A DNA stretch of 24,826 nucleotides, from the IMG/VR virus record IMGVR_UViG_3300015371_000165, positions 1 to 24,826 of that record; one strand, 5' to 3'. Source of the DNA: a virus. Below are positions 89 to 20,970 of the stretch, one piece after another; within the stretch, counting starts at the first letter, position 1; every line of letters starts with the position of its first letter. The translations under genes were made by a program, and so were the position numbers. A model generated the notes under the pieces. The model ran no database searches. It saw nothing but the letters and a program-made list of their open reading frames with translations, and was not told the DNA's origin.

Positions 89-277
89 TCAACCGTGATC
101 GCGGGGGATCATCGCCAGACCCCGGAACAGGTCACGCTCGGCCGTCACGTCTCTGAGCTCGTACTCAAGCGTCCTGATCTGATCGTTCTTGCTGCTGATG
201 AGCAGCTTGAGCAGGAACACGGCAACGCCGATCAGTCCGCCGATGAGGCTGGTAATCGTGACGACATCAATGGTCAC
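89..277 (-). CDS. Small membrane protein with coiled-coil tail, spanin- or holin-like
   Basis: This is a 62-residue ORF with a GTG start that overlaps the stop of the upstream gene as GTGA. Residues 5 to 27 form one membrane span rich in Ile, Leu and Val. The rest is charged and likely helical (KNDQIRTLEYELRDVTAERD), as in a short coiled coil. A single N-terminal anchor plus a coiled-coil tail fits inner-membrane spanins (Rz-like) or small holin-associated proteins, though it is shorter than typical Rz. Its place after an endolysin and a holin-like gene supports a lysis role, but no family is recognised with certainty. The overlap suggests translational coupling. Confidence 0.7.
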   Translation of the reverse strand: MTIDVVTITSLIGGLIGVAVFLLKLLISSKNDQIRTLEYELRDVTAERDLFRGLAMIPRDHG

Positions 278-585
278 GAGCCATCGGGCCTGGTGTTCGG
301 CACGAACGGCGAGACCGCCGGCTCCCTGGCCGGAGCAGGGTCAGGGATAGGCAGGAATGTTGGCGTGGGCGCGCGTGTCGGGACGGGGAACGGCTCCGTG
401 GCCGGCGATGAAACGGGCAGGACGACGGCAGCGGGCGCAATGACCAGTGTCGGCGTCGGCTCAGTGAGGACCTGTTCAGCAACCTGCACCGGAGGCGGAT
501 GCAGCCCAAGGCCGACAAGCGCACCGAGCACACCGCCAGTCGCGATGTACACGGCACACTCTACGTAGAGCCTCCGGATCGGCAA
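274..585 (-). CDS. Membrane-anchored proline-rich protein of the lysis region
   Basis: This is a 103-residue ORF beginning with TTG directly after the TGA of the holin-like gene; an AGG lies about nine bases upstream of it. An in-frame GTG ten codons further in is an alternative start. Residues about 10 to 28 make one hydrophobic span with several glycines. The remaining three quarters is dominated by Pro, Ala, Thr and Val (for example TRAPTPTFLPIPDPAPA), which suggests an extended, unstructured external tail. This architecture could suit a spanin-like protein that bridges the envelope, or an accessory holin. No catalytic motif is visible. The function is inferred only from position. Confidence 0.65.
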   Translation of the reverse strand: MPIRRLYVECAVYIATGGVLGALVGLGLHPPPVQVAEQVLTEPTPTLVIAPAAVVLPVSSPATEPFPVPTRAPTPTFLPIPDPAPAREPAVSPFVPNTRPDGS

Positions 586-1207: not shown

Positions 1208-1251
1208 CACGGGTCGTAGGCAAACGAGACGCCCGTGTCTACTGAAAAGGG
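1208..1251 (-). promoter_or_regulatory. Candidate -1 ribosomal frameshift signal before the endolysin
   Basis: On the minus strand the heptamer C CCT TTT (1251 to 1245) sits in the X XXY YYZ phase of the 61-residue ORF, two codons before that ORF's stop. A 7-base spacer (CAGTAGA) is followed by CACGGG (1237 to 1232), which pairs with CCCGTG (1213 to 1208). An inner CGT/ACG extension is possible with one bulged A. The -1 frame leads directly into the endolysin. These are the expected parts and spacing of a programmed -1 frameshift site. Short GC stems are frequent in such DNA, so the arrangement could be chance. Confidence 0.4.
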
Positions 1252-1424
1252 AGGCGATTGACCTTGTTATCGGCTTCGTACCACCAGTACTGTGCGTCGC
1301 GCGCCAGCGTAAGGCTTACTTTTTGACCCTCGTCCAGGATGACGAACCGCTCGTCGGAGCGAGCCTCGTCACCGTTATCGGCGATCGCCTGGGCCACGCC
1401 GGGCCCGATGCTCCAGTCGGTCAT
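1239..1424 (-). CDS. Small conserved-looking phage protein upstream of the endolysin
   Basis: This is a 61-residue acidic ORF. Its ATG overlaps the stop of the preceding gene as ATGA, and GGGA lies about seven bases upstream. It starts MTDWSIGPGVAQAIADNGDE and ends in RLPFQ. The centre reads like a small beta domain (RFVILDEGQKVSLTLARDAQYWWYEA). I do not recognise a characterised family with certainty, though short phage proteins that begin with IGPGV and end near RLPF seem familiar. The stop codon lies just after a CCCTTTT heptamer, so part of the translation might extend into the endolysin frame, giving a product of about 220 residues. Confidence 0.7.
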   Translation of the reverse strand: MTDWSIGPGVAQAIADNGDEARSDERFVILDEGQKVSLTLARDAQYWWYEADNKVNRLPFQ

Positions 1425-5329: not shown

Positions 5330-6364
5330 CTACTCTGCGTGGGCACTGCTCACCTCGAAGTCGAACTGCTCGCCGTCCCACTGGACGTAGCGCCAGTTGC
5401 CGGTAGTCGTGAACACGTCCTGCCATTTGACCGACGGGCCGCCGCTGATGCGGAACGCGCCGTCTGACCAGTAGATGTAGACCAGCTGGATGGACGGCAC
5501 CAGCGTGCCGCTCGTCTGGGCCGAGCCGCTGGAGGTGCCGCTCAACGAGCGAGCAGCCCGGAGCGTGCCGCCACTCGAACTCGAGCCGACAGCCAGGCCA
5601 GCCAGCAACCTGGAGCGCCGCAGCAGCACGCTGACGCTCGCCACACCCGCGGCGAGGGCGCCCAGCGTACGTCGAGCCGACAGCGCGACGCTGACGGTGG
5701 CGCGTCCAGCAGACAGCGCCGCAAACGAACCTTTCTTGCCTAGGATCGCGGCGACGCTCGTCGACCCCGCGGACAGACCGCTGAAGGTGCGCTTGACGGA
5801 CAGGCCAGCAGCGACGGCTGCCAGCCCGGCGGACAAGCCACTGAGGCCAACCCGTCGCCGCAGCGAAACACTGACGCTGGCAACACCAGTCGAAAGCGCC
5901 GACAGCGCCCGCTTGCGACTCAGGCTGACCGCGACAGTGGCAATACCCGCGGCCGACACGCTCAGGCTGCGCTTACGACTCAGCAGGACCGCGACGCTGG
6001 CGACGCCGCTAGCCGCGCCGAGCAGCGAGACGCGCACGCGGCTGAGCGTCACGCTGACGCTTGCGACACCAGCGGAGAGTGCGCTCAGACTGCGCTTGCG
6101 TCCGATCTGAACGGCAACACTAGCGACGCCCGCCGCGATAGCAACCAGCGATCGCTTACAACTCAGGCTGACAGCAACTGTTGCCGCGCCCGCGCTCAGG
6201 CGTGAGCCGAGCGAGCGTCTGGCGCTGATCTTCGTGATCGGCCGCAGCTGCGCGATCGTCTTCGGGCGCAGGCTGCCGATCGTCTGACCACGCGAGCCGC
6301 TAACCGCCGACGGCCAACCGGCAACGCGGCCTACGCCGTCGGTGCGCGCCTGGAAAAACGCCAA
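5330..6364 (-). CDS. Tail-associated protein with twelve 20-residue repeats
   Basis: This 344-residue protein starts with TTG at 6364, two bases after the upstream stop, with GAGG seven bases before it. Residues 25 to 41 carry the RGxTIG motif. Residues 49 to 291 are twelve head-to-tail repeats of mostly 20 residues with consensus near RSLSALSAGVASVSVSLSRK; the last, RSLSGTSSGSAQTSGTL, resembles GTSxGxAxxxGxL repeats known to me from phage tail proteins. Residues 292 to 344 form a different, aromatic-rich C-terminal domain (VYIYWSDGAFRISGG). The repeats alternate small and hydrophobic residues, as in stacked beta strands, so a fibrous shaft is likely. The gene sits between head-tail genes and the large tail protein. 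Confidence 0.8.
   Translation of the reverse strand: MAFFQARTDGVGRVAGWPSAVSGSRGQTIGSLRPKTIAQLRPITKISARRSLGSRLSAGAATVAVSLSCKRSLVAIAAGVASVAVQIGRKRSLSALSAGVASVSVTLSRVRVSLLGAASGVASVAVLLSRKRSLSVSAAGIATVAVSLSRKRALSALSTGVASVSVSLRRRVGLSGLSAGLAAVAAGLSVKRTFSGLSAGSTSVAAILGKKGSFAALSAGRATVSVALSARRTLGALAAGVASVSVLLRRSRLLAGLAVGSSSSGGTLRAARSLSGTSSGSAQTSGTLVPSIQLVYIYWSDGAFRISGGPSVKWQDVFTTTGNWRYVQWDGEQFDFEVSSAHAE
5492..6220 (-). repeat. Twelve tandem repeats of about 60 bp inside the 344-residue gene
   Basis: Twelve units of 60 to 66 bases encode the repeated peptide. Most units are exactly 60 bp, so successive units stay in register. DNA copies have diverged more than would be expected of a recent slippage event, while the protein pattern (Arg/Lys, Ser-Leu, Ser-Ala-Gly, Val-Ala-Ser-Val) is kept. 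This points to an old expansion kept by selection on the protein. Confidence 0.85.
6242..6292 (-). repeat. RGxTIG motif, copy 1 (N-terminus of the repeat protein)
   Basis: This encodes RGQTIGSLRPKTIAQLR, residues 25 to 41 of the 344-residue protein. It is clearly built of two octapeptides, QTIGSLRP and KTIAQLRP. It lies just before the 20-residue repeats start. Confidence 0.8.
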
Positions 6365-6782: not shown

Positions 6783-7064
6783 CTAGGGAGAAGGTGGAGG
6801 CGGACCGCCAGGGTCGAGAACCGCCATGATGCGTTGCACGTACGCGCGCAGATCGGAGTCGATCGCACCGGTGGTGCCCGCCGGTCCTGCCGGCCCTTGC
6901 TGCCCGGTTGCGCCAGGCGCGCCCGGCGGACCGGGAGGTCCAACGGGACCGGGAGGTCCCGGCGGGCCGGGCGGCGGACTGGGCGAACCGACGATGCCTC
7001 CCTGGCGAGGCACACCAGGCAGCTCGGGGAGGTTGATCACCACCGGTATGGCGCGATTGGTCAT
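6783..7064 (-). CDS. Collagen-like virion protein
   Basis: This 93-residue ORF overlaps the connector gene by 4 bases (ATGA) and seems to rely on coupling, since no clear ribosome site is seen. Residues 33 to 66 are eleven uninterrupted Gly-X-Y triplets (GPPGPPGPVGPPGPPGAP, then GATGQQGPAGPAGTTG), rich in Pro at X and Y, as in collagen. A short helix with heptad-like hydrophobics (DLRAYVQRIMAVL, residues 71 to 83) follows and could hold three chains in register. The protein ends in a proline run. It is probably a trimeric rod in the tail or neck. Collagen-like segments are known in phage fibres, usually embedded in longer proteins rather than standing alone. Confidence 0.85.
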   Translation of the reverse strand: MTNRAIPVVINLPELPGVPRQGGIVGSPSPPPGPPGPPGPVGPPGPPGAPGATGQQGPAGPAGTTGAIDSDLRAYVQRIMAVLDPGGPPPPSP

Positions 7065-10115: not shown

Positions 10116-10126
10116 TTGTATTACAA
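10116..10126. promoter_or_regulatory. Palindrome TTGTATTACAA between divergent genes, possible operator or promoter
   Basis: A perfect 5-1-5 inverted repeat lies in the AT-rich gap between the divergent capsid and HNH genes. On the plus strand the overlapping TACAAT (10122 to 10127) resembles a -10 box. If used, transcription would start almost at the HNH ATG, giving a leaderless message. No convincing -35 box is present. Its small size means it could be chance. Confidence 0.3.
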
Positions 10127-10136
10127 TGCCTTACTC

Positions 10137-10616
10137 ATGGAGAATTGGGCACCAATCGCCGACTGGGAGGGTAGCTACGCCGTTTCCGACGCAGGCAACG
10201 TCTACAGCTATCGGCGAAAAACCAACTTGCGCGGATTTAATGCGGGAGCGGGCTATCTGGCCGTCACGCTTGCTGATAAGCCCAAGAGACAGCGCGCGTA
10301 CGTGCACATCTTGGTTGCTGAGGCTTTCCTGCCACCCAGGCCCGGCCCCCGTTTTGAGATCAACCACATCAATCTCGACAAGACTGACAACCGTGCAATC
10401 AACCTCGAGTGGGTTGTCCATGCACGTAACCAGGGTCACGCTGCTGAACATGACCGAATGCGCAAACCCAAGCAGCGCAAACTCACAGATGAGCAGGTCC
10501 GCTGGATACGCACGAATCGCAATGGATCAGCCCACAAGATGGCCGACCAGCTTGGCGTCACGTCGATCGTGATCTACCAAATCTGGAACGGCTTGACGTA
10601 TCGCGATGTGTTCTAG
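10137..10616 (+). CDS. HNH homing endonuclease with NUMOD4 and HTH domains
   Basis: This 159-residue protein is the only plus-strand gene. It starts MENWAPIADWEGSYAVSD, the NUMOD4 motif, which contacts DNA in homing endonucleases. The HNH nuclease core follows: His57, Asn76-His77 in EINHINLDKTDN, Asn85 and Asn89-Leu90-Glu91-Trp92. Residues about 117 to 155 (LTDEQVRWIRTN, then KMADQLGVTSIVIYQIWNG) form a C-terminal helix-turn-helix for sequence recognition. Free-standing enzymes of this kind cut the homologous site in related phages and spread by repair. It lies between scaffold and capsid genes, opposite to the operon. A TTG at 10116 in frame is less likely as start. There is no Shine-Dalgarno. 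Confidence 0.9.
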   Translation: MENWAPIADWEGSYAVSDAGNVYSYRRKTNLRGFNAGAGYLAVTLADKPKRQRAYVHILVAEAFLPPRPGPRFEINHINLDKTDNRAINLEWVVHARNQGHAAEHDRMRKPKQRKLTDEQVRWIRTNRNGSAHKMADQLGVTSIVIYQIWNGLTYRDVF

Positions 10617-13543: not shown

Positions 13544-13553
13544 TCACCTCCTT
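13544..13553 (-). promoter_or_regulatory. Very strong Shine-Dalgarno AAGGAGGTGA for the 705-residue gene
   Basis: The sequence AAGGAGGTGA is almost fully complementary to the 3' end of bacterial 16S rRNA, with 8 bases between AGGAGG and the ATG. It begins on the last base of the upstream TGA. It suggests that the 705-residue protein is made in larger amounts than its coupled neighbours. Confidence 0.85.
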
Positions 13554-16500
13554 CAGAGTGCCGAAGACTGCTGCCGGACACGCTGCGCCGGGTTGCTGCC
13601 GCTGGCGCGAAGCTGACGCACCACCTCCGCGCCCGCCTTCTGCCGCGCGGCGTCCATCGATTTCGTGATCAACGCGGTACGCGCGGCTTCGCTCTTGGAA
13701 AACGACGGCATGTCCATCGCGCGGCGCAGGTACTGGTCGAAGTACTGGTTGGTGAGTCGCTGGTACTCGGTCTGCTCGTCGCGCCGCAGCGGAATACGCT
13801 GGATGTCGCTTGGCACCGCGGACGGCTCGTAGTAGCTGCCCAGATCACGCAGCCGCTGGCGGATGTCGTTCTGCAGCAACTGGTCCGGGCGCGAGACGTC
13901 CTGCCAGGATTGGCCGCCGGTGCCGCGCACGAATCGACCCAGCCCACTGCCAACCACCGGCAGGTCCGACAGCAGCCCCGGTGCGCGCGGCGGCGTGCCG
14001 CTCGCGACGTCGCTGGCGCCCAGTGCGGACGAGCCGAGTCCGTTGAGCATGTCGCGCACGACGAAGTCCACCTGGCTGGGGTGGATGCGCGCCGTCTCGC
14101 CGCCGGGCACGTACGAGGTCACCGCGTCTTCGAGATGCGGCGCCAGGAGCTTGCCGAGTGCCGAAGCATTCTCGTCGCTGAAGCGGTTGGCGATCGTGGT
14201 GCCGCGGAACGGGTCGCGGTTGCTGCTCAGCGCGCCGACGGTGCCGATCGGCGCCGGCAGCAGGCCGTACGTGGCATCCAGCGGGTTGCGCACGTTCAGC
14301 GGCGACAGCGCCGACAGGCCGGCGCCGGCGAGCTCGCCCGCACCACGGGGGGCGCCCTCGCCGCTGATGCGGTCGTAGCCCTCGCGCGCGGCAATGGCGA
14401 ACGGAGCGAACTCGCGCAGGTTCATGTCGATGTGTTGCGGCATACGGTTGCCGTTCTTGTCGACCGGCGCCTCGCCCGGCAGCATGACCACCACGCCCTG
14501 GTCCTTCAGGTACTGTGGCACGTTGTCGTAGTCCTTCGAGCGCTGCGGGTCGGAGCGGTTCCACATCTCGGCGGCAACCGTCGGCAGCCCGACGAGCGAG
14601 ACGCCGGCGAGCGCCATGGCCGCCGGGTCGCGCTTCCACAGCCGCGCGAACTGGGCGCCGCCCTGCATGCCCGCGTTGAAAAACGGGATCCAGTGGTTGA
14701 GAGCTTTGGCGAACTGGCCGCCGCGGTCGAAGTCGATGGTCACGTCACGAGCGCGCGCCATCGCCTCGAGCTGCGTCTCGCCGCGCTGGCGTGCGACGCG
14801 GTAGGCGGCGATGCGCGGCGCTTGCTCGAAGCGGTTGCCGAGCGCCTTGACCCAGCCGAAGGCGGCCGCGTCGCTGAGCAGCTTCTTTGCGTCGTCCGCA
14901 TTGCGGATCTGGAAGGCGTTCTTGCGCGTCAGCTCAGACAGGCGCTTTTCCGCCTCCTGGACGCCGCCACCGAAGAAGTTCCCGCCGCGCATCCCGCCGC
15001 CGGCCAGCTCGAGCTCGCGCGCACCCTGGCCGGTCATACGGCCGCTGCCGAGTCCCTGGAGCACGTCGCCGTAGGCGCGCAGGAACTCGCGCATGGCGCT
15101 CGGTCCCAGGCCCAGCTTGTTACTCATGAGCGCGCGCGTGGCGACGCCGGCGATCGCCGCGCCGGCGATCTTCTGGCCGCGGTTCGGGTCATCGTTCGAG
15201 GTCGCCGCCGCGGTGGCCAGCGCCGGCCCCAGGTTGAGGGCCATCGACGGCAGGTTCCTGCCGAAGCCGCCGGCCGCGGTGGTGCCGATCGAGTAGCCCG
15301 CCGCGTCGATGAGCGAGTTGCCGGCGAGCCACAGCGGATTGCGTGAAACGGCTGTTTCACGCATCAGGTTGGTGAGCTTGCTAGCCGCACGCGACACGGC
15401 ATCCGGTGCGACACCAGCCTGCTCGATGGCCTGCTTGAGGTACGGATTGTCGGTGACGTACTCCTGCTTCTTGCCCTCGACGAAGGCGCTGATCTTCGAC
15501 TCGCCGCGACCCGGTCTGGGTGTGTAGTCCGGGTGCAGCAGCGCACCGCTCTCGCCGCCGGCGTCGATGTACTCCTTGAGTGTGTCGGCGATGCGGCGCA
15601 GCGGGCCGCCCTCGCCGCGGGTGGCGTTGATGGTCTGGTTGACCACGCGGTTACGGTTGCCCAGCGCGTAGGTGCGGTCAGCTTCCTTGAGCAGCGCGGC
15701 AACCGGGTTCATCGCCTCGCCCTGGCTACCCTCGAGCGTGTACGGGTGCAGGCCGGTGTCGTTGACGCTCAGGCGTGAACCGCGCGCCATGGCCGGACCG
15801 CCATCCTCGCCGATGTAGTCGAGCTGGCGCGTGGGCGTCCAGTCCGGGTACAGGCTGCGCAGGTTGTCGGCCGTGTCCTGCGACACCAGCCCGCTGTCGA
15901 CCTGCTCCTGCAGGAGCTGCTCGCGGAAGTTGCGCACCGCTTGCCGCGCGTCCTGCATGGCTCGCCACGTCTCGGGCTGGTCGGCGTATTTCGTTTCCAG
16001 GTTGCGGATGTTCTCGAGCACCTGGTCGTAACTCTGGCCCTGGAATTTTCGGCCGGTGAGCTGCGCCCAGCCCTGCGCCTGTGCCGCGGCGGGCAGGTCC
16101 TGCTGTGCTTGCTGCACATCCTCGAGTGCTTTCTGCACCCGCTTCTCGGCGCGGCCCACCTCGTCCTGCAGCCCCTGGCGGCCGCGCGCCTGTGCAGTCT
16201 GCAGCCGCTCGAGGTTGCGCTGCTCGTAGCGCAGGCGCACATTGGCCGCGGCGTACTGAGGTGTGGGGTTGTAGCGCGGCTGCTGCGCAAACGCCGTCTC
16301 GGAGGCGCCCTGTGCGCGCTGTTCGATGGCGGCGCTGCGCGCACCGGAGCGCTCGCCGAGCGCTGCTCGCAGGCGTGCGGCTCGGTCTTCGGCACGCCCC
16401 ACCTGGCGGCCGAGCGTCTCCACGTACGGGTTCTCGGGATCGCGGCCGAAGAGGCGATCGTAGCGCTCGTTCAGCTTGCGGGCGTTTTCCTCGGCGATGA

Positions 16501-19411
16501 TCAGGTCGCGCGACTCCGCGTTGGTCACCAGGCGCGCGTTCGGGCTGGCGGTCACGCGCTCGGCGGCAGCCTCGGAGTTGACCTGGCGCGCTACCTCGGC
16601 GGCGGCTTCGAGCTGGGCGCGCGCGTTCTCCACGCGCCGCTGCGCCGCGTCGATGCCGATCCGATCGCGTGTGCGCGGATTGGCGGCGACGGCCTCGGCT
16701 TCGTTGACCGCATCCTGGGCCGCGTTCCAGTCCTGCAGCGCGCCCTCCAGGCGCTGCTGCATGCTCTGCGGTACGCCGCCCTCCAGGTACTGCTGCTCGA
16801 CCTGCTTGGCCAGCCCCTCGCCGATGGACTTGTTGGTGTAATGCTGCTGCAGGTCGTAGTAGTCGTTCAGCGCCTCGCCTGGGATAGCCCGCAGCGCCGG
16901 GCCGAGCGCGATCTCGGTCGCCGCCGAAGCCTGGTGCGTCGGGTCGAAGCGAATCTGGAGCGCGACGTTTTCCTCGTCGGTGAGCGGCCGTCCGAGTCGT
17001 TGCCGGAGCGCCTCGCCGATGTGGTTGACGTCGACGTTGCGGTCGTAGAACTGGCGCACGAAGGCGTCCCAGCCGCCCTGCACCCCGTTGCGCTCGAGCG
17101 AGGCGTTGATGCTGCTTTCGCCGCGCGTGGCGAGCTCGCGCACGATGCTGGGGGTGCCGACATTTGAGGGCAGCACGCCGGCCACCGGGCCGCCAGCGGG
17201 TGCGGCGGCACGCGCCGTGTCGAAGGCCTCGCCGAGCGCGCGCGTGACGCCTTCGGTGCCGCGCACGCGGTGGATCAGCTCGCCGATCGCCTCGAGCGGA
17301 TCGAGGAACGGCGGGATCTCCAGCCGCGGGTCAGCACCCAGACGCGGATCGTAGACGCCCAGCCCACCGGGTCCGGGCAGCGGCGACTGGCGGTTCAAGG
17401 CTTTCTGACCAGCGGCCTCGACGGCGGCCAGCACCGCGTCGCCGGGAGACTTGCCGCTGAAGTCCGGCGGCAAGATCTCGGGCGCGCCGATGTCCTGCAG
17501 CGTGTGCCCGCCGGGCAGCTCGTTGAAGCGCTCGAGCTCCTGGCGCGTGCGGCTGTACAGGTCATCGCGCCGCTTGCGGTCCTCCTCGCCTCCACCGGGT
17601 GGTGGCGGAGGCCCTCCGCCCAGCACGCTGGAGAGTGCGCGCTGGATCGCGCCGCCGATGGCGCTGCCGAGCTGATCCAGCGGCGAGCCCTCGTCCGCGG
17701 TGGCGGTGTCCCAGCGATCAAGCTCGCGCTGCAAGGTCGAGCGCGTGTCCTGCGCACCGGTCGCCGGCGGCTGGGAGGTGTGTGCATATTGCACTGCCTG
17801 CTCGAGCTGCTGGACCTGCGGGTCGTTGGGGTTCTGCGGCTGCGGCCGTGTCTGCTGCGGCGTGGTGAACCAGTTGGTGGGGTTCAGCGCCTGCATCGCC
17901 GCCTGCTTCTGCTGGTTCAGGTAGTCGGCCGGTGGATGCGCCGTGCTCGGCGCCGGCGCCTGCGGGTTGTCGGCAAACAGCGCGCCCTGGATGGCGCCCA
18001 TGCGCGCCTCCATCTGGGCCGGCGTCATCCACTCGGCGCCGCCCTTCAGGTCGAGGCCGGACTGCCCGACGTGGAACGCACCGGTCTGCGGGTTGTAGCC
18101 GTCGGCGTAGAAGTAGTGGCCGGGCGTACTGATGGTGATCGGGTTGCCGGTGCTGGCTTCGGTGGCCATCGCGCCGATGTTCGCGCCCACCAGTCTGGTG
18201 GGGATGCCCAGCTTCTCGAGCAGCTTCTGTTCGCTGCCGATGCCGGCCATGCCCGCGGCCGGCGTCCAGCCGACGCTCGCGGCGAGGTCGGTTGCCTCGC
18301 GCAACGTGGGATTACGGCCGTAGGCCTGGGCGAAGCGGACCGCGGCGGCCGGTCCGCAGGCTGCATACGCCTCGTCACTCGACAGTTGCCGGTCACCGAA
18401 CTGGCTCGTCGACAGAGCCGTGCCTGCAGTCGGGGGCGCTCCAGGAGGCAGAGGTGCCCTCGACTGCAGATCAGGCTGTACCGCGGACTTGCCCGCGTTG
18501 CCCAGGATGCTGCTGACGTACGACTGCGTTTCCTTATAAGGAGGCACACCGCCGTACTGCTCCACCGCGCCGGGCCCGGCGTTGTAGGCGGCCAGGACCT
18601 TGGCCCAGTCGCCGCCGTACTGCTTCAGGTGGCGCGCGTCCATCTGCGCCGCTGCCTCGAGCGCGGCGTACGGGTCGGTGGGATCCAGGTTCAGGCCAGC
18701 AGCGGTGCCGGGCATGAACTGGGCGATGCCGATCGCGCCGGCCGGGCTCTTGGCCGTCGGGCTGAAGCCCGACTCCTGCTGAATCTGCGCGACAAAGATG
18801 TCTGGGTCGACGCCCGCGCGCGAGGCTGCCTGGCGCGCGTAGGCGCGCAGGTCGCCGCCGACTGGCACGTTCGTCGTCGACGGCGACGGCGTCGAGATCG
18901 GCGACGTCTGATCGGCAAACGGCGACGGCTGCGGCGCGACGGGCGCGCCCCAGGTACTGGGCGGTCCGGCCGTGCCGCTGAGCTGGCCGCCGGGCACGGT
19001 CGGCACCAGCGGCACCGTGGGTGTGAGCTGGCCCTGCACGCCGGGCGGCTGCGGCGGGGTGACCTGCGGCGGCGGGGTGGGCGCCGGCGTGGGCGGCAAC
19101 AGCAGCGGCGCCGGCGGCAGCGCCTCTGGTACAGGTGGCGGCGACGGAGGCGGCACGACCGCGGGCGCCGGTGCCTGCTGCGGCAGTTGCGGCAGCGCTG
19201 GCAGCTGCGGCAGCGGGATCTGCGGCAGCTGCGGCAAGGGGATCGCCGAGCCGAAGGCCTGCTCGGGAATCTCGTAGCCGAGCGCGTCGATCCTGGCCTG
19301 GTTGCGCAGGCCGAAGCTCATCGCGCCGATGCGCTGTTCGTTGGCCTGCTGGAACTGGGACGCCCGGTAGCGGTTGTACTCGTCTTCCGGGACGTCGGGC
19401 AGCATGCTCAT
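13553..19411 (-). CDS. Giant virion protein with lytic transglycosylase and C39-like peptidase domains
   Basis: This 1952-residue protein starts at ATG 19411, overlapping the previous stop as ATGA. Residues 55 to 185 are a Pro-rich linker with LPQ repeats. Residues about 187 to 305 are an SLT lytic transglycosylase with Glu213 in QQESGFSPTA, then GAIGIAQFMPGTA and AAYNAGPGAVEQYGG. Residues about 345 to 480 are a C39-like peptidase with Cys352 in AACGPAAA and His432 in GHYFYADGYN. A coiled coil spans about 864 to 1127. Near 1552 to 1577, ARDVTIDFDRGG and LNHWIPFFNAGMQG resemble the LPD38 domain of large polyvalent proteins. The two hydrolases would cut glycan and peptide of the wall during DNA entry. 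It probably belongs to an ejection complex like that of T7 gp16. Confidence 0.85.
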   Translation of the reverse strand: MSMLPDVPEDEYNRYRASQFQQANEQRIGAMSFGLRNQARIDALGYEIPEQAFGSAIPLPQLPQIPLPQLPALPQLPQQAPAPAVVPPPSPPPVPEALPPAPLLLPPTPAPTPPPQVTPPQPPGVQGQLTPTVPLVPTVPGGQLSGTAGPPSTWGAPVAPQPSPFADQTSPISTPSPSTTNVPVGGDLRAYARQAASRAGVDPDIFVAQIQQESGFSPTAKSPAGAIGIAQFMPGTAAGLNLDPTDPYAALEAAAQMDARHLKQYGGDWAKVLAAYNAGPGAVEQYGGVPPYKETQSYVSSILGNAGKSAVQPDLQSRAPLPPGAPPTAGTALSTSQFGDRQLSSDEAYAACGPAAAVRFAQAYGRNPTLREATDLAASVGWTPAAGMAGIGSEQKLLEKLGIPTRLVGANIGAMATEASTGNPITISTPGHYFYADGYNPQTGAFHVGQSGLDLKGGAEWMTPAQMEARMGAIQGALFADNPQAPAPSTAHPPADYLNQQKQAAMQALNPTNWFTTPQQTRPQPQNPNDPQVQQLEQAVQYAHTSQPPATGAQDTRSTLQRELDRWDTATADEGSPLDQLGSAIGGAIQRALSSVLGGGPPPPPGGGEEDRKRRDDLYSRTRQELERFNELPGGHTLQDIGAPEILPPDFSGKSPGDAVLAAVEAAGQKALNRQSPLPGPGGLGVYDPRLGADPRLEIPPFLDPLEAIGELIHRVRGTEGVTRALGEAFDTARAAAPAGGPVAGVLPSNVGTPSIVRELATRGESSINASLERNGVQGGWDAFVRQFYDRNVDVNHIGEALRQRLGRPLTDEENVALQIRFDPTHQASAATEIALGPALRAIPGEALNDYYDLQQHYTNKSIGEGLAKQVEQQYLEGGVPQSMQQRLEGALQDWNAAQDAVNEAEAVAANPRTRDRIGIDAAQRRVENARAQLEAAAEVARQVNSEAAAERVTASPNARLVTNAESRDLIIAEENARKLNERYDRLFGRDPENPYVETLGRQVGRAEDRAARLRAALGERSGARSAAIEQRAQGASETAFAQQPRYNPTPQYAAANVRLRYEQRNLERLQTAQARGRQGLQDEVGRAEKRVQKALEDVQQAQQDLPAAAQAQGWAQLTGRKFQGQSYDQVLENIRNLETKYADQPETWRAMQDARQAVRNFREQLLQEQVDSGLVSQDTADNLRSLYPDWTPTRQLDYIGEDGGPAMARGSRLSVNDTGLHPYTLEGSQGEAMNPVAALLKEADRTYALGNRNRVVNQTINATRGEGGPLRRIADTLKEYIDAGGESGALLHPDYTPRPGRGESKISAFVEGKKQEYVTDNPYLKQAIEQAGVAPDAVSRAASKLTNLMRETAVSRNPLWLAGNSLIDAAGYSIGTTAAGGFGRNLPSMALNLGPALATAAATSNDDPNRGQKIAGAAIAGVATRALMSNKLGLGPSAMREFLRAYGDVLQGLGSGRMTGQGARELELAGGGMRGGNFFGGGVQEAEKRLSELTRKNAFQIRNADDAKKLLSDAAAFGWVKALGNRFEQAPRIAAYRVARQRGETQLEAMARARDVTIDFDRGGQFAKALNHWIPFFNAGMQGGAQFARLWKRDPAAMALAGVSLVGLPTVAAEMWNRSDPQRSKDYDNVPQYLKDQGVVVMLPGEAPVDKNGNRMPQHIDMNLREFAPFAIAAREGYDRISGEGAPRGAGELAGAGLSALSPLNVRNPLDATYGLLPAPIGTVGALSSNRDPFRGTTIANRFSDENASALGKLLAPHLEDAVTSYVPGGETARIHPSQVDFVVRDMLNGLGSSALGASDVASGTPPRAPGLLSDLPVVGSGLGRFVRGTGGQSWQDVSRPDQLLQNDIRQRLRDLGSYYEPSAVPSDIQRIPLRRDEQTEYQRLTNQYFDQYLRRAMDMPSFSKSEAARTALITKSMDAARQKAGAEVVRQLRASGSNPAQRVRQQSSAL

Positions 19412-20970
19412 TGCAAGCGGAACGACCCCGCCGACCCGCCGCCGGTGGCGTACTTGGGCAGCGCCTGCTTGAACAGGTTCACAGCGTCGTCCTGGTTGTA
19501 GCCCTGCGACTCCCAGACGCCGAGCAGCATCTGTTGCTGGCTGGGCTGCAGCGCATTCCACGTCTGCGGCGCCATCTGGTTGGGCGCCACGAGCGCGCCC
19601 TGAGCGCTCTGGAGCTCCTGTTGCTGGGGCTGGCCGGTGGCCTGGTTGACGAAGCCGCCGAGCGTGACCGCGTTGGGGTTGACGCCCGTGGTCGCGCCGC
19701 TGCCCGGTACGTACTGGCCCGCGGCAGCCCGGACGAGGTCGGTCATGCCCCCCGGCGTGGCGCCCAGCACCTTCTGGTACTGCGCCCAGTCGGCGGGCCC
19801 GCGCAGGTTCGACAGCAAAGTCAGGTACCTGTTGGCGGTGTCCTGCTGGAACTGCTGGTAGGGCAAGGTCAGGTCGCCGACCTGGGGCGCGTTCACGCCG
19901 GCCTGTCCGGCCTGACCCGGCGCGCCGGGGGCGTAGTACTTGCCGTACAGCCCGGCGAGCGCCTGCGCCTGGGCGAAGTACTGCTGCTGCGCCGACAGCG
20001 TCTCCTGGGGCGTACCCGGTCCGCCGGGGCCACCGGCCTGGCCGGGGTTCCACGTGCCGCCCGCAGCTTCGACAGCCTGACGCGCGGCGTTGTTGGAATC
20101 GGCCACCCACTTGTTCATGGCCGCGTTCCAGTCGCCGCCGTTCGAGTAGAAGTACGCCTGCTGGGTGCCCTGATCCAGGTCCTGGAATTTCTGCCCGCCG
20201 TAGTTGGTGCCCGGCGGCAGGACCTGCGCCGGCGCCTGGTACATGCCTGTCTGGCCAGCCTGGGCGACGGCCTGGTTGATCGCGGCGCTGTTCAGGTTGC
20301 TGTACTGCGATAGCCCGGCGAGTGTCTGCTGCGGGAAGTTCTGGGGCGGCGCGAGCTCGAGCATCTGCGCCTTGGACGCCGGCAGCACGTTCATCGTGGT
20401 CAGGTCGCCGTTCCAGCCCATCGCCTTGGCCTGAGGGATGTTGACCCGCTGCAGCTGGCCGCTCGGCAAGACGTAGCTGATCTGGACGTCGCCGTACCTG
20501 GCCGTGTCATACGTGCCGGGGTCCAGCCGCACAAACGTACCAGGGGTGTATTCCGACTGCCTGGGGGCTGCATACCAGCCCGTCAGCCCGGCCGCGTTCT
20601 GGGCCATGCCCTGGGCGCCGGACAGCTCGCCCATCGTCTGCCCGGCGTTCACGCCGGTGAAGCCGGGGATGTAGCCGATGGCGCCGGTGGCCTGTCCAGA
20701 CGCTAGCGTGGGCGTACCCATCGGCGGCGCGTTGGCTGCCAGACTACCCAGGCTCGTCCAGTCGCCACCCGGCGCCCAGCCGAACGCACCGGCCATGTTC
20801 ATGGCCTGCGTCATGGCGGCGTTGGCTTTCTGGAACGCGAGCGTGTCCGCATCGCCGGCGAGCTTGGCCTGGTTGTAGGCGATCTGCGCCTGAGAGGAGG
20901 CCCAGTTCGACGCGGCGTTGATGACAGACGGGTCGGTGGTGTTCACGCCCGGCATGGTCGGCATGCTCAT
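19408..20970 (-). CDS. Ala/Gln/Gly-rich virion protein, internal virion candidate
   Basis: This is a 520-residue protein with ATG at 20970, overlapping the previous stop as TGATG, and GGAG seven bases upstream. It starts with helices rich in Ala and Gln (NWASSQAQIAYNQAKLAGDA). The middle has a small beta part (RYGDVQISYVLPSGQLQRVN), and the second half is again Gln/Ala-rich with Pro/Gly linkers (PGQAGGPGGPGTPQETL) and ends with a helical region including LQPSQQQMLLGVWESQGYNQ. The composition and position before the giant hydrolase gene resemble podovirus internal core proteins. No family is recognised. Longer frames upstream are shadows of neighbouring genes. Confidence 0.75.
   Translation of the reverse strand: MSMPTMPGVNTTDPSVINAASNWASSQAQIAYNQAKLAGDADTLAFQKANAAMTQAMNMAGAFGWAPGGDWTSLGSLAANAPPMGTPTLASGQATGAIGYIPGFTGVNAGQTMGELSGAQGMAQNAAGLTGWYAAPRQSEYTPGTFVRLDPGTYDTARYGDVQISYVLPSGQLQRVNIPQAKAMGWNGDLTTMNVLPASKAQMLELAPPQNFPQQTLAGLSQYSNLNSAAINQAVAQAGQTGMYQAPAQVLPPGTNYGGQKFQDLDQGTQQAYFYSNGGDWNAAMNKWVADSNNAARQAVEAAGGTWNPGQAGGPGGPGTPQETLSAQQQYFAQAQALAGLYGKYYAPGAPGQAGQAGVNAPQVGDLTLPYQQFQQDTANRYLTLLSNLRGPADWAQYQKVLGATPGGMTDLVRAAAGQYVPGSGATTGVNPNAVTLGGFVNQATGQPQQQELQSAQGALVAPNQMAPQTWNALQPSQQQMLLGVWESQGYNQDDAVNLFKQALPKYATGGGSAGSFRLQ

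Follow-up and report, generated by a model that had tools for sequence, protein, structure and literature searches.

We found a family of phage lysin loci in which programmed frameshifting very probably yields two products, a short domain and a fusion of this domain to the lysin. We infer the slipping from the comparison of homologous loci, starting from one locus in a viral DNA of 24,826 nucleotides (hereafter, the window). The interpretation is favored because a common junction, the arrangement of the reading frames, constrained codons, missing start codons, repeated switching of the shift direction and two folded domains all point to it.

The predicted frameshift site in the window

The locus (Table 1) begins with a 61-residue ORF whose ATG overlaps the stop codon of a preceding 67-aa ORF (ATGA, 1421-1424). 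This ORF would be the default product. On the minus strand it ends with AAC AAG GTC AAT CGC CTC CCT TTT CAG TAG, encoding N K V N R L P F Q *. The heptamer C_CCT_TTT lies in the 0 frame inside the 1266-1239 ORF overlap and conforms to the pattern X_XXY_YYZ. The original prediction had placed the end of the ORF, the heptamer and the stop one codon later correctly to the base.

The -1 frame from the site reads CCC TTT TCA GTA GAC ACG GGC GTC TCG TTT GCC TAC GAC CCG TGG ATG, and the junction peptide expected of the fusion is ..NRLPFSVDTGVSFAYDPW... This lysin frame is open from 1266, with a TAA at 1269-1267, and contains no ATG, GTG or TTG until the ATG at 1206-1204. As had been predicted, this ATG lacks a Shine-Dalgarno sequence: its duplex energy is +0.4 kcal/mol, versus a mean of -6.8 for 61 starts of the N-domain (the domain encoded by the short ORF).

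A stable downstream structure 5-9 nt away is usual for -1 frameshifting, but it is not required. The predicted stem CACGGG/CCCGTG after a 7-nt spacer does exist. However, the folding of its region does not exceed that of dinucleotide shuffles (z -0.18; 83/200 as good), and the stem was not seen in L024, the sole other GTNAAYCGNCTNCCTTTYNNNTAG contig that we found. In addition, its 3′ arm falls within codons of the conserved DPW motif. Given the shuffle-level folding and the position of this arm, the stem alone is no evidence. By contrast, the candidate slip site, the absent start and the coding-like linker are together, judged from the relatives, beyond chance.

Table 1. Features of the predicted frameshift locus in the window
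Feature	Position	Strand	Details
61-residue ORF	1424-1239	minus	ATG 1424, TAG 1239; 60-residue N-domain, one codon and stop
C CCT TTT slippery heptamer	1251-1245	minus	-1 shift would give CCC TTT; homologous site in relatives
0-frame stop TAG	1241-1239	minus	one codon past the slip site
-1-frame linker, 13 codons SVDTGVSFAYDPW	1207-1245	minus	joins N-domain to lysin domain; homologous linker disordered in L041 model
C39-like cysteine peptidase (lysin) domain	754-1206	minus	ATG 1206 to TAG 756-754
Predicted frameshift product, 223 aa	757-1424	minus	60 aa from frame 0 and 163 aa from frame -1; inferred from frames and homologues
Possible downstream stem CACGGG (1237-1232) / CCCGTG (1213-1208)	1208-1237	minus	7-nt spacer; not above chance
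52-aa hydrophobic protein, probable holin	586-744	minus	directly downstream of lysin; sequence and weak PHROG holin match, E 0.015

Homologous loci and their frames

A scan of viral contigs with the lysin domain returned six relatives, with matches that begin 3-8 residues before the ATG. A profile scan led to 74 loci, and a scan with the N-domain added more. The set used for statistics comprises 86 readable viral loci, forming 74 clusters at 97%. L038 and L040 have an N-domain and a +1 junction, but were excluded since their Cys motif is FTC.

In all 86 readable loci the lysin domain follows immediately upon the N-domain, and none of the 74 clusters has a separately started lysin. The arrangement that had been named as contrary to a fusion, i.e., a separate gene with its own start and nothing conserved upstream, occurs in none of the readable loci with an N-domain. 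Some lysin relatives lack the N-domain (e.g., L001, L044 and L154); the N-termini of these are different, and each lies in frame with a start.

A shift at the same junction is required in 67 of the 74 clusters. The shift is +1 in 51 clusters and -1 in 16, including the window, while 7 clusters are in frame. The terminal Phe at which the frame changes is the same across clusters, and it usually belongs to Pro-Phe or Ala-Phe. Typical junctions are CCC TTT TGA and CCC TTT CGG TGA (pattern CCC TTT CGN TGA) for +1, CTG GCT TTC TAG and C CCT TTC TGA for -1, and GTC CCT TTT GAG and CTC CCT TTC GGT GAC for in-frame loci. The original prediction called for a check that the heptamer is kept among homologues. 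The junction and the need to shift are kept, but the -1 heptamer is not: the direction is not conserved, and most relatives need +1. The exact site in the window is its own, and L024 is the other canonical C_CCT_TTY_NNN_TAG case.

In-frame fusions occur in L004, L029-L033, L036, L041, L045 and L149. These lineages show that a protein with both domains fused does exist as a type of product, and the relatives support the predicted fusion of about 223 residues arising from a ribosomal slip at the junction. A rival explanation is that the frame difference in the window is an assembly or sequencing error, the true gene being in frame like L041. The window is a single metagenomic record, and one extra base in the C/T run would produce an in-frame fusion. 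However, the other 66 shifted clusters come from independent contigs, identical junctions recur in separate assemblies, and in the window the heptamer is perfect and a stop follows one codon further on. We therefore consider such an error very improbable.

Neither the N-domain nor the lysin domain matched any phage in INPHARED, and no N-domain was found in prokaryote genomes. A lysin relative (L154:5001-5441) does occur in one Chloroflexota MAG, joined in frame to another N-terminus, which is similar to what the neighboring upstream gene encodes. Its presence in a Chloroflexota MAG is a hint of the host phylum.

Codons, stops and starts at the junction

The codons at the junction are strongly constrained. 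All 51 clusters of the +1 class use TTT for the Phe (background 18%); codon p-values ignore shared descent, but this constraint is nonetheless complete across a diverse set. The Pro codon is CCC in 46/48 of the +1 class (background 28%) and CCT in 13/13 of the other classes (background 15%). These constrained codons are the ones that would allow tRNA re-pairing in the needed direction. One observation counts against frameshifting: the -1 sites with GCT TTY offer poor re-pairing in the P site. We discounted transcriptional slippage, because no run at the site exceeds four bases.

The 0-frame stop lies 0 or 1 codon past the Phe in 66/67 shifted clusters. Within the +1 class, TGA directly follows TTT in 30/51 clusters, and one sense codon, mostly CGN, precedes the stop in 20/51. 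The lysin frame is stop-free from the N-domain stop to the catalytic Cys in 67/67 clusters. Differences among the linkers exhibit a third-position excess (69/143 differences, p 1.6e-4), and the FAYDPW residues ahead of the ATG are kept as coding among relatives. This agrees with the amino-acid conservation that had been expected there.

The original prediction regarded simple coupling as an alternative. In this case, translation would terminate at TAG 1239 and reinitiate at ATG 1206, 32 nt past the stop, giving a free 150-residue lysin and no fusion. Some ATG, GTG or TTG precedes the Cys in 53/67 shifted clusters, including the window, which is compatible with coupling. Yet the remaining 14 clusters have none of these codons between junction and Cys, and five of them (L027, L068, L133, L148 and L153) also lack CTG, ATT, ATC and ATA there. 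Where candidate lysin starts are present, their mean Shine-Dalgarno pairing is -3.7, versus -6.8 for N-domain starts. The window ATG itself has no Shine-Dalgarno sequence, and Q frequently takes the place of the M in the common SMPGQ motif. Coupling also leaves unexplained the constraint on the Pro-Phe codons, the proximity of the stops to the Phe, the coding conservation ahead of the ATG and the existence of in-frame fusions. These points make coupling an improbable explanation, in favor of programmed frameshifting.

Candidate stimulatory hairpins

In the +1 class, the 24-base segment that immediately precedes the slip codons folds unusually well, with a mean of -6.26 kcal/mol versus -4.28 kcal/mol for permuted sequences (z -8 to -9). 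In this control, codons were permuted within column and amino acid, preserving the same proteins. For ten other stretches of this gene, used as controls, z ranged from -2.1 to +1.4, and the signal is missing in the -1 class (z -1.0). The upstream stems keep their pairing despite differing in sequence (CCGG/CCGG, GCGG/CCGC, GCGA/UCGC, CCUC/GAGG, ACGUC/GACGU and ACAACGCU/AGCGUUGU). The end of their 3′ arm adjoins the E-site codon, at a distance of 6-10 nt from where the Phe codon ends. When the relation between hairpin and shift direction is corrected for relatedness, it comprises four independent pairs only and is not statistically established. A criterion based on contiguous base pairs did not separate the classes, and a lax hairpin criterion accepted all -1 clusters as well.

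Nothing special was seen in structures downstream of the site in the +1 class. Some -1 relatives (L043 and L128) have strong downstream stems. The L089-L112 group has a hairpin, AUCGAGCCG/CGGUUCGAU, about 8 nt past the -1 slip site, downstream of GCT TTY TAG/TAA. A different strong stem occupies the same place in L128, in a shifted register.

We also noticed a purine-rich GAGGAGG or GAGAGGG tract roughly 25-33 nt ahead of the slip site in L002, L020, L021 and other +1 relatives. The tract resembles a Shine-Dalgarno sequence and is complementary to the slip sequence CCCUUUY, with the hairpin in between. It may merely reflect Glu-Glu or Glu-Arg codons.

Changes of direction and a proposed mechanism

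On a tree of both domains, the frame class changes about 9-10 times, and at least five of these changes are forced by supported branches. The window (-1) is the sister of L008 (+1). The three in-frame groups retain C CCT TTY, and ribosomes slipping -1 there would run into TGA immediately or one codon later. Such a -1 exit would give a short product in the in-frame lineages, although the -1 stop may be inherited and not selected. Judging from these patterns, selection seems to keep both products while the junction stays fixed.

We propose that most ribosomes in the window would translate the 61-residue ORF to its stop, and a small autonomous domain would be set free. Some ribosomes would slip one base back on C CCU UUU, with the tRNAs re-pairing on CCC UUU. 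They would then pass the UAG and translate the C39-like peptidase, and the two domains of the resulting 223-aa fusion would be joined by a flexible linker. In the family as a whole, the junction has stayed in place, and the slip would have been re-made many times, usually as +1 and sometimes as -1. In +1 relatives, with a stop or CGN codon pending in the A site, tRNA-Phe would shift its pairing from UUU to UUU/UUC, and the hairpin abutting the E-site side would probably help. A few lineages would have become fused in frame, retaining a -1 slip site that leads to a stop within a codon.

A broader proposal is that this is a recoding-dependent lysin family with two selected products, an exchangeable route (+1, -1, or in frame with a -1 exit to a stop) and a refolding hairpin at the edge of the E site that drives +1. 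We offer this version tentatively, with our confidence falling somewhat short of even.

Protein domains and the possible role of the two products

We used AlphaFold2 to model the in-frame homologue L041. In the model, both domains are folded (mean pLDDT 89), and residues 63-69 form a disordered stretch. The slip point coincides with the domain boundary in this model, and the disordered linker begins at the slip. The N-domain of the window, modeled alone, has a pLDDT of 91.9 and consists of one helix and four strands; this fold has no significant structural match in the PDB or BFVD. A Foldseek search with the fused L041 model found the peptidase domains of PeiR, PCAT1 and ComA (E about 1e-5 to 1e-3). 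By sequence, the lysin domain has no match in Pfam, PHROG or the PDB. Its Cys and His are invariant among the homologues, and the L041 model points to a C39-like, papain-like fold. The candidate triad in the window is Cys (WTCSAC), His (YYHW) and Asn (ANSA).

Most of the 18-19 relatives searched have no match to Amidase_2, Amidase_3, NlpC/P60, M23 or GH25. Because these five common lysin families are mostly absent and a holin-like gene follows, the C39-like protein is likely the endolysin. Two small ORFs come after the holin-like gene in the window (89-585, minus strand). One is proline-rich with a hydrophobic start and the other has a membrane helix and a coiled coil, resembling a possible spanin-like pair.

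Whereas the junction and frames have comparative support, we can only infer what the two products do. By analogy with two-polypeptide endolysins, the role that we favor for the short domain is that it might be an extra subunit or a wall-binding partner of the lysin. This is the weakest step of our proposal, and we regard it as possible but doubtful. Alternatively, if the frameshift is real, the N-domain could be a minor virion protein, with frameshifting hanging the peptidase on a few copies. There is precedent in phage structural proteins, in which frameshifting adds Ig-like extensions and the decoding route, +1, -1 or in frame, seems not to matter (PMC5009743). Moreover, the N-domain gene comes after other small genes and a large tail-region block. 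However, the holin-like gene after the lysin and the scarcity of matches to the common lysin families favor a role in lysis. In addition, many of these phages already carry a giant virion protein with an SLT domain. A virion role thus appears unlikely.

SLT domains are located in giant proteins of many relatives. The window encodes a 2185-residue protein (13553-20110, minus strand) with SLT transglycosylase and LPD38 domains, which resembles internal virion proteins with endolysin domains. Elsewhere in the window, a 166-residue ORF (10116-10616, plus strand) runs opposite to the other main genes, adjoins the capsid gene and, by eye, resembles an HNH homing endonuclease. One minus-strand ORF (6783-7064) has collagen-like Gly-Pro-Pro repeats (GPPGPPGPVGPPGPPGAPG), and another (5330-6364, 344 residues) consists of repeats, each about 22 residues long, that have diverged from one another (of the type SLSALSAGVASVSVSLSRKR).

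Comparison with known systems

Phage frameshifting with exchangeable direction is already known for structural proteins, as are lysins with two products made by internal starts. We found no report of a lysin made by frameshifting in the literature, of which our coverage was partial and thin on subscription journals. Gene callers will overlook lysins of this kind or call them too short, since the enzyme itself lacks a good start.

The Listeria phages PSA, A118 and A500 use +1 frameshifting at CCC_UGA in a tail shaft gene, and +1 or -1 frameshifting in capsid genes (PMC5009743). As in our family, a phage gene has a Pro codon and a stop at the site, short and extended products, and a direction that depends on the phage. 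Unlike those structural proteins, the product here is a lysin, the slippery Phe codon UUU(Y) is conserved and the +1 relatives have an upstream hairpin. In our family, nature has replicated one junction many times over in three frame states, so that it can be tested directly which trait selection maintains.

Two-polypeptide endolysins arise from single genes through internal in-frame starts, which yield a C-terminal piece (PMC9430671). Similarly, one lysin locus here is predicted to give a full-length enzyme and a short isoform. The difference is that the short piece is N-terminal and made by default, ending at a 0-frame stop, while the enzyme would require frameshifting; the locus does not qualify as an internal-start system. 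The predicted catalytic fold and the Cys, His and Asn candidates resemble those of C39 peptidases and the pseudomurein endoisopeptidase PeiR, although the lysin has no sequence match in the PDB or Pfam.

The E. coli prfB gene shifts +1 at CUU_UGA with a Shine-Dalgarno sequence juxtaposed to the E site (PMC6321510). In the +1 relatives, as in prfB, a P-site YUU would slip +1 with UGA in the A site and a stimulator directly 5′. Their layout is prfB-like overall, with a slippery P-site codon, a slow A-site codon or stop and a candidate hairpin at the E site. In contrast to prfB, the candidate stimulator is an mRNA hairpin and not Shine-Dalgarno pairing with rRNA, and there is no autoregulation; the comparison applies to these relatives and not to the window. 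Upstream refolding hairpins juxtaposed to the E site are reported to stimulate +1 and attenuate -1 frameshifting on 70S ribosomes (PMC6321510). The hairpin of the +1 relatives likewise abuts the E site, but it is a natural, conserved candidate, whereas those hairpins were designed constructs. If it acts, it would be the natural counterpart of a mechanism demonstrated in such constructs.
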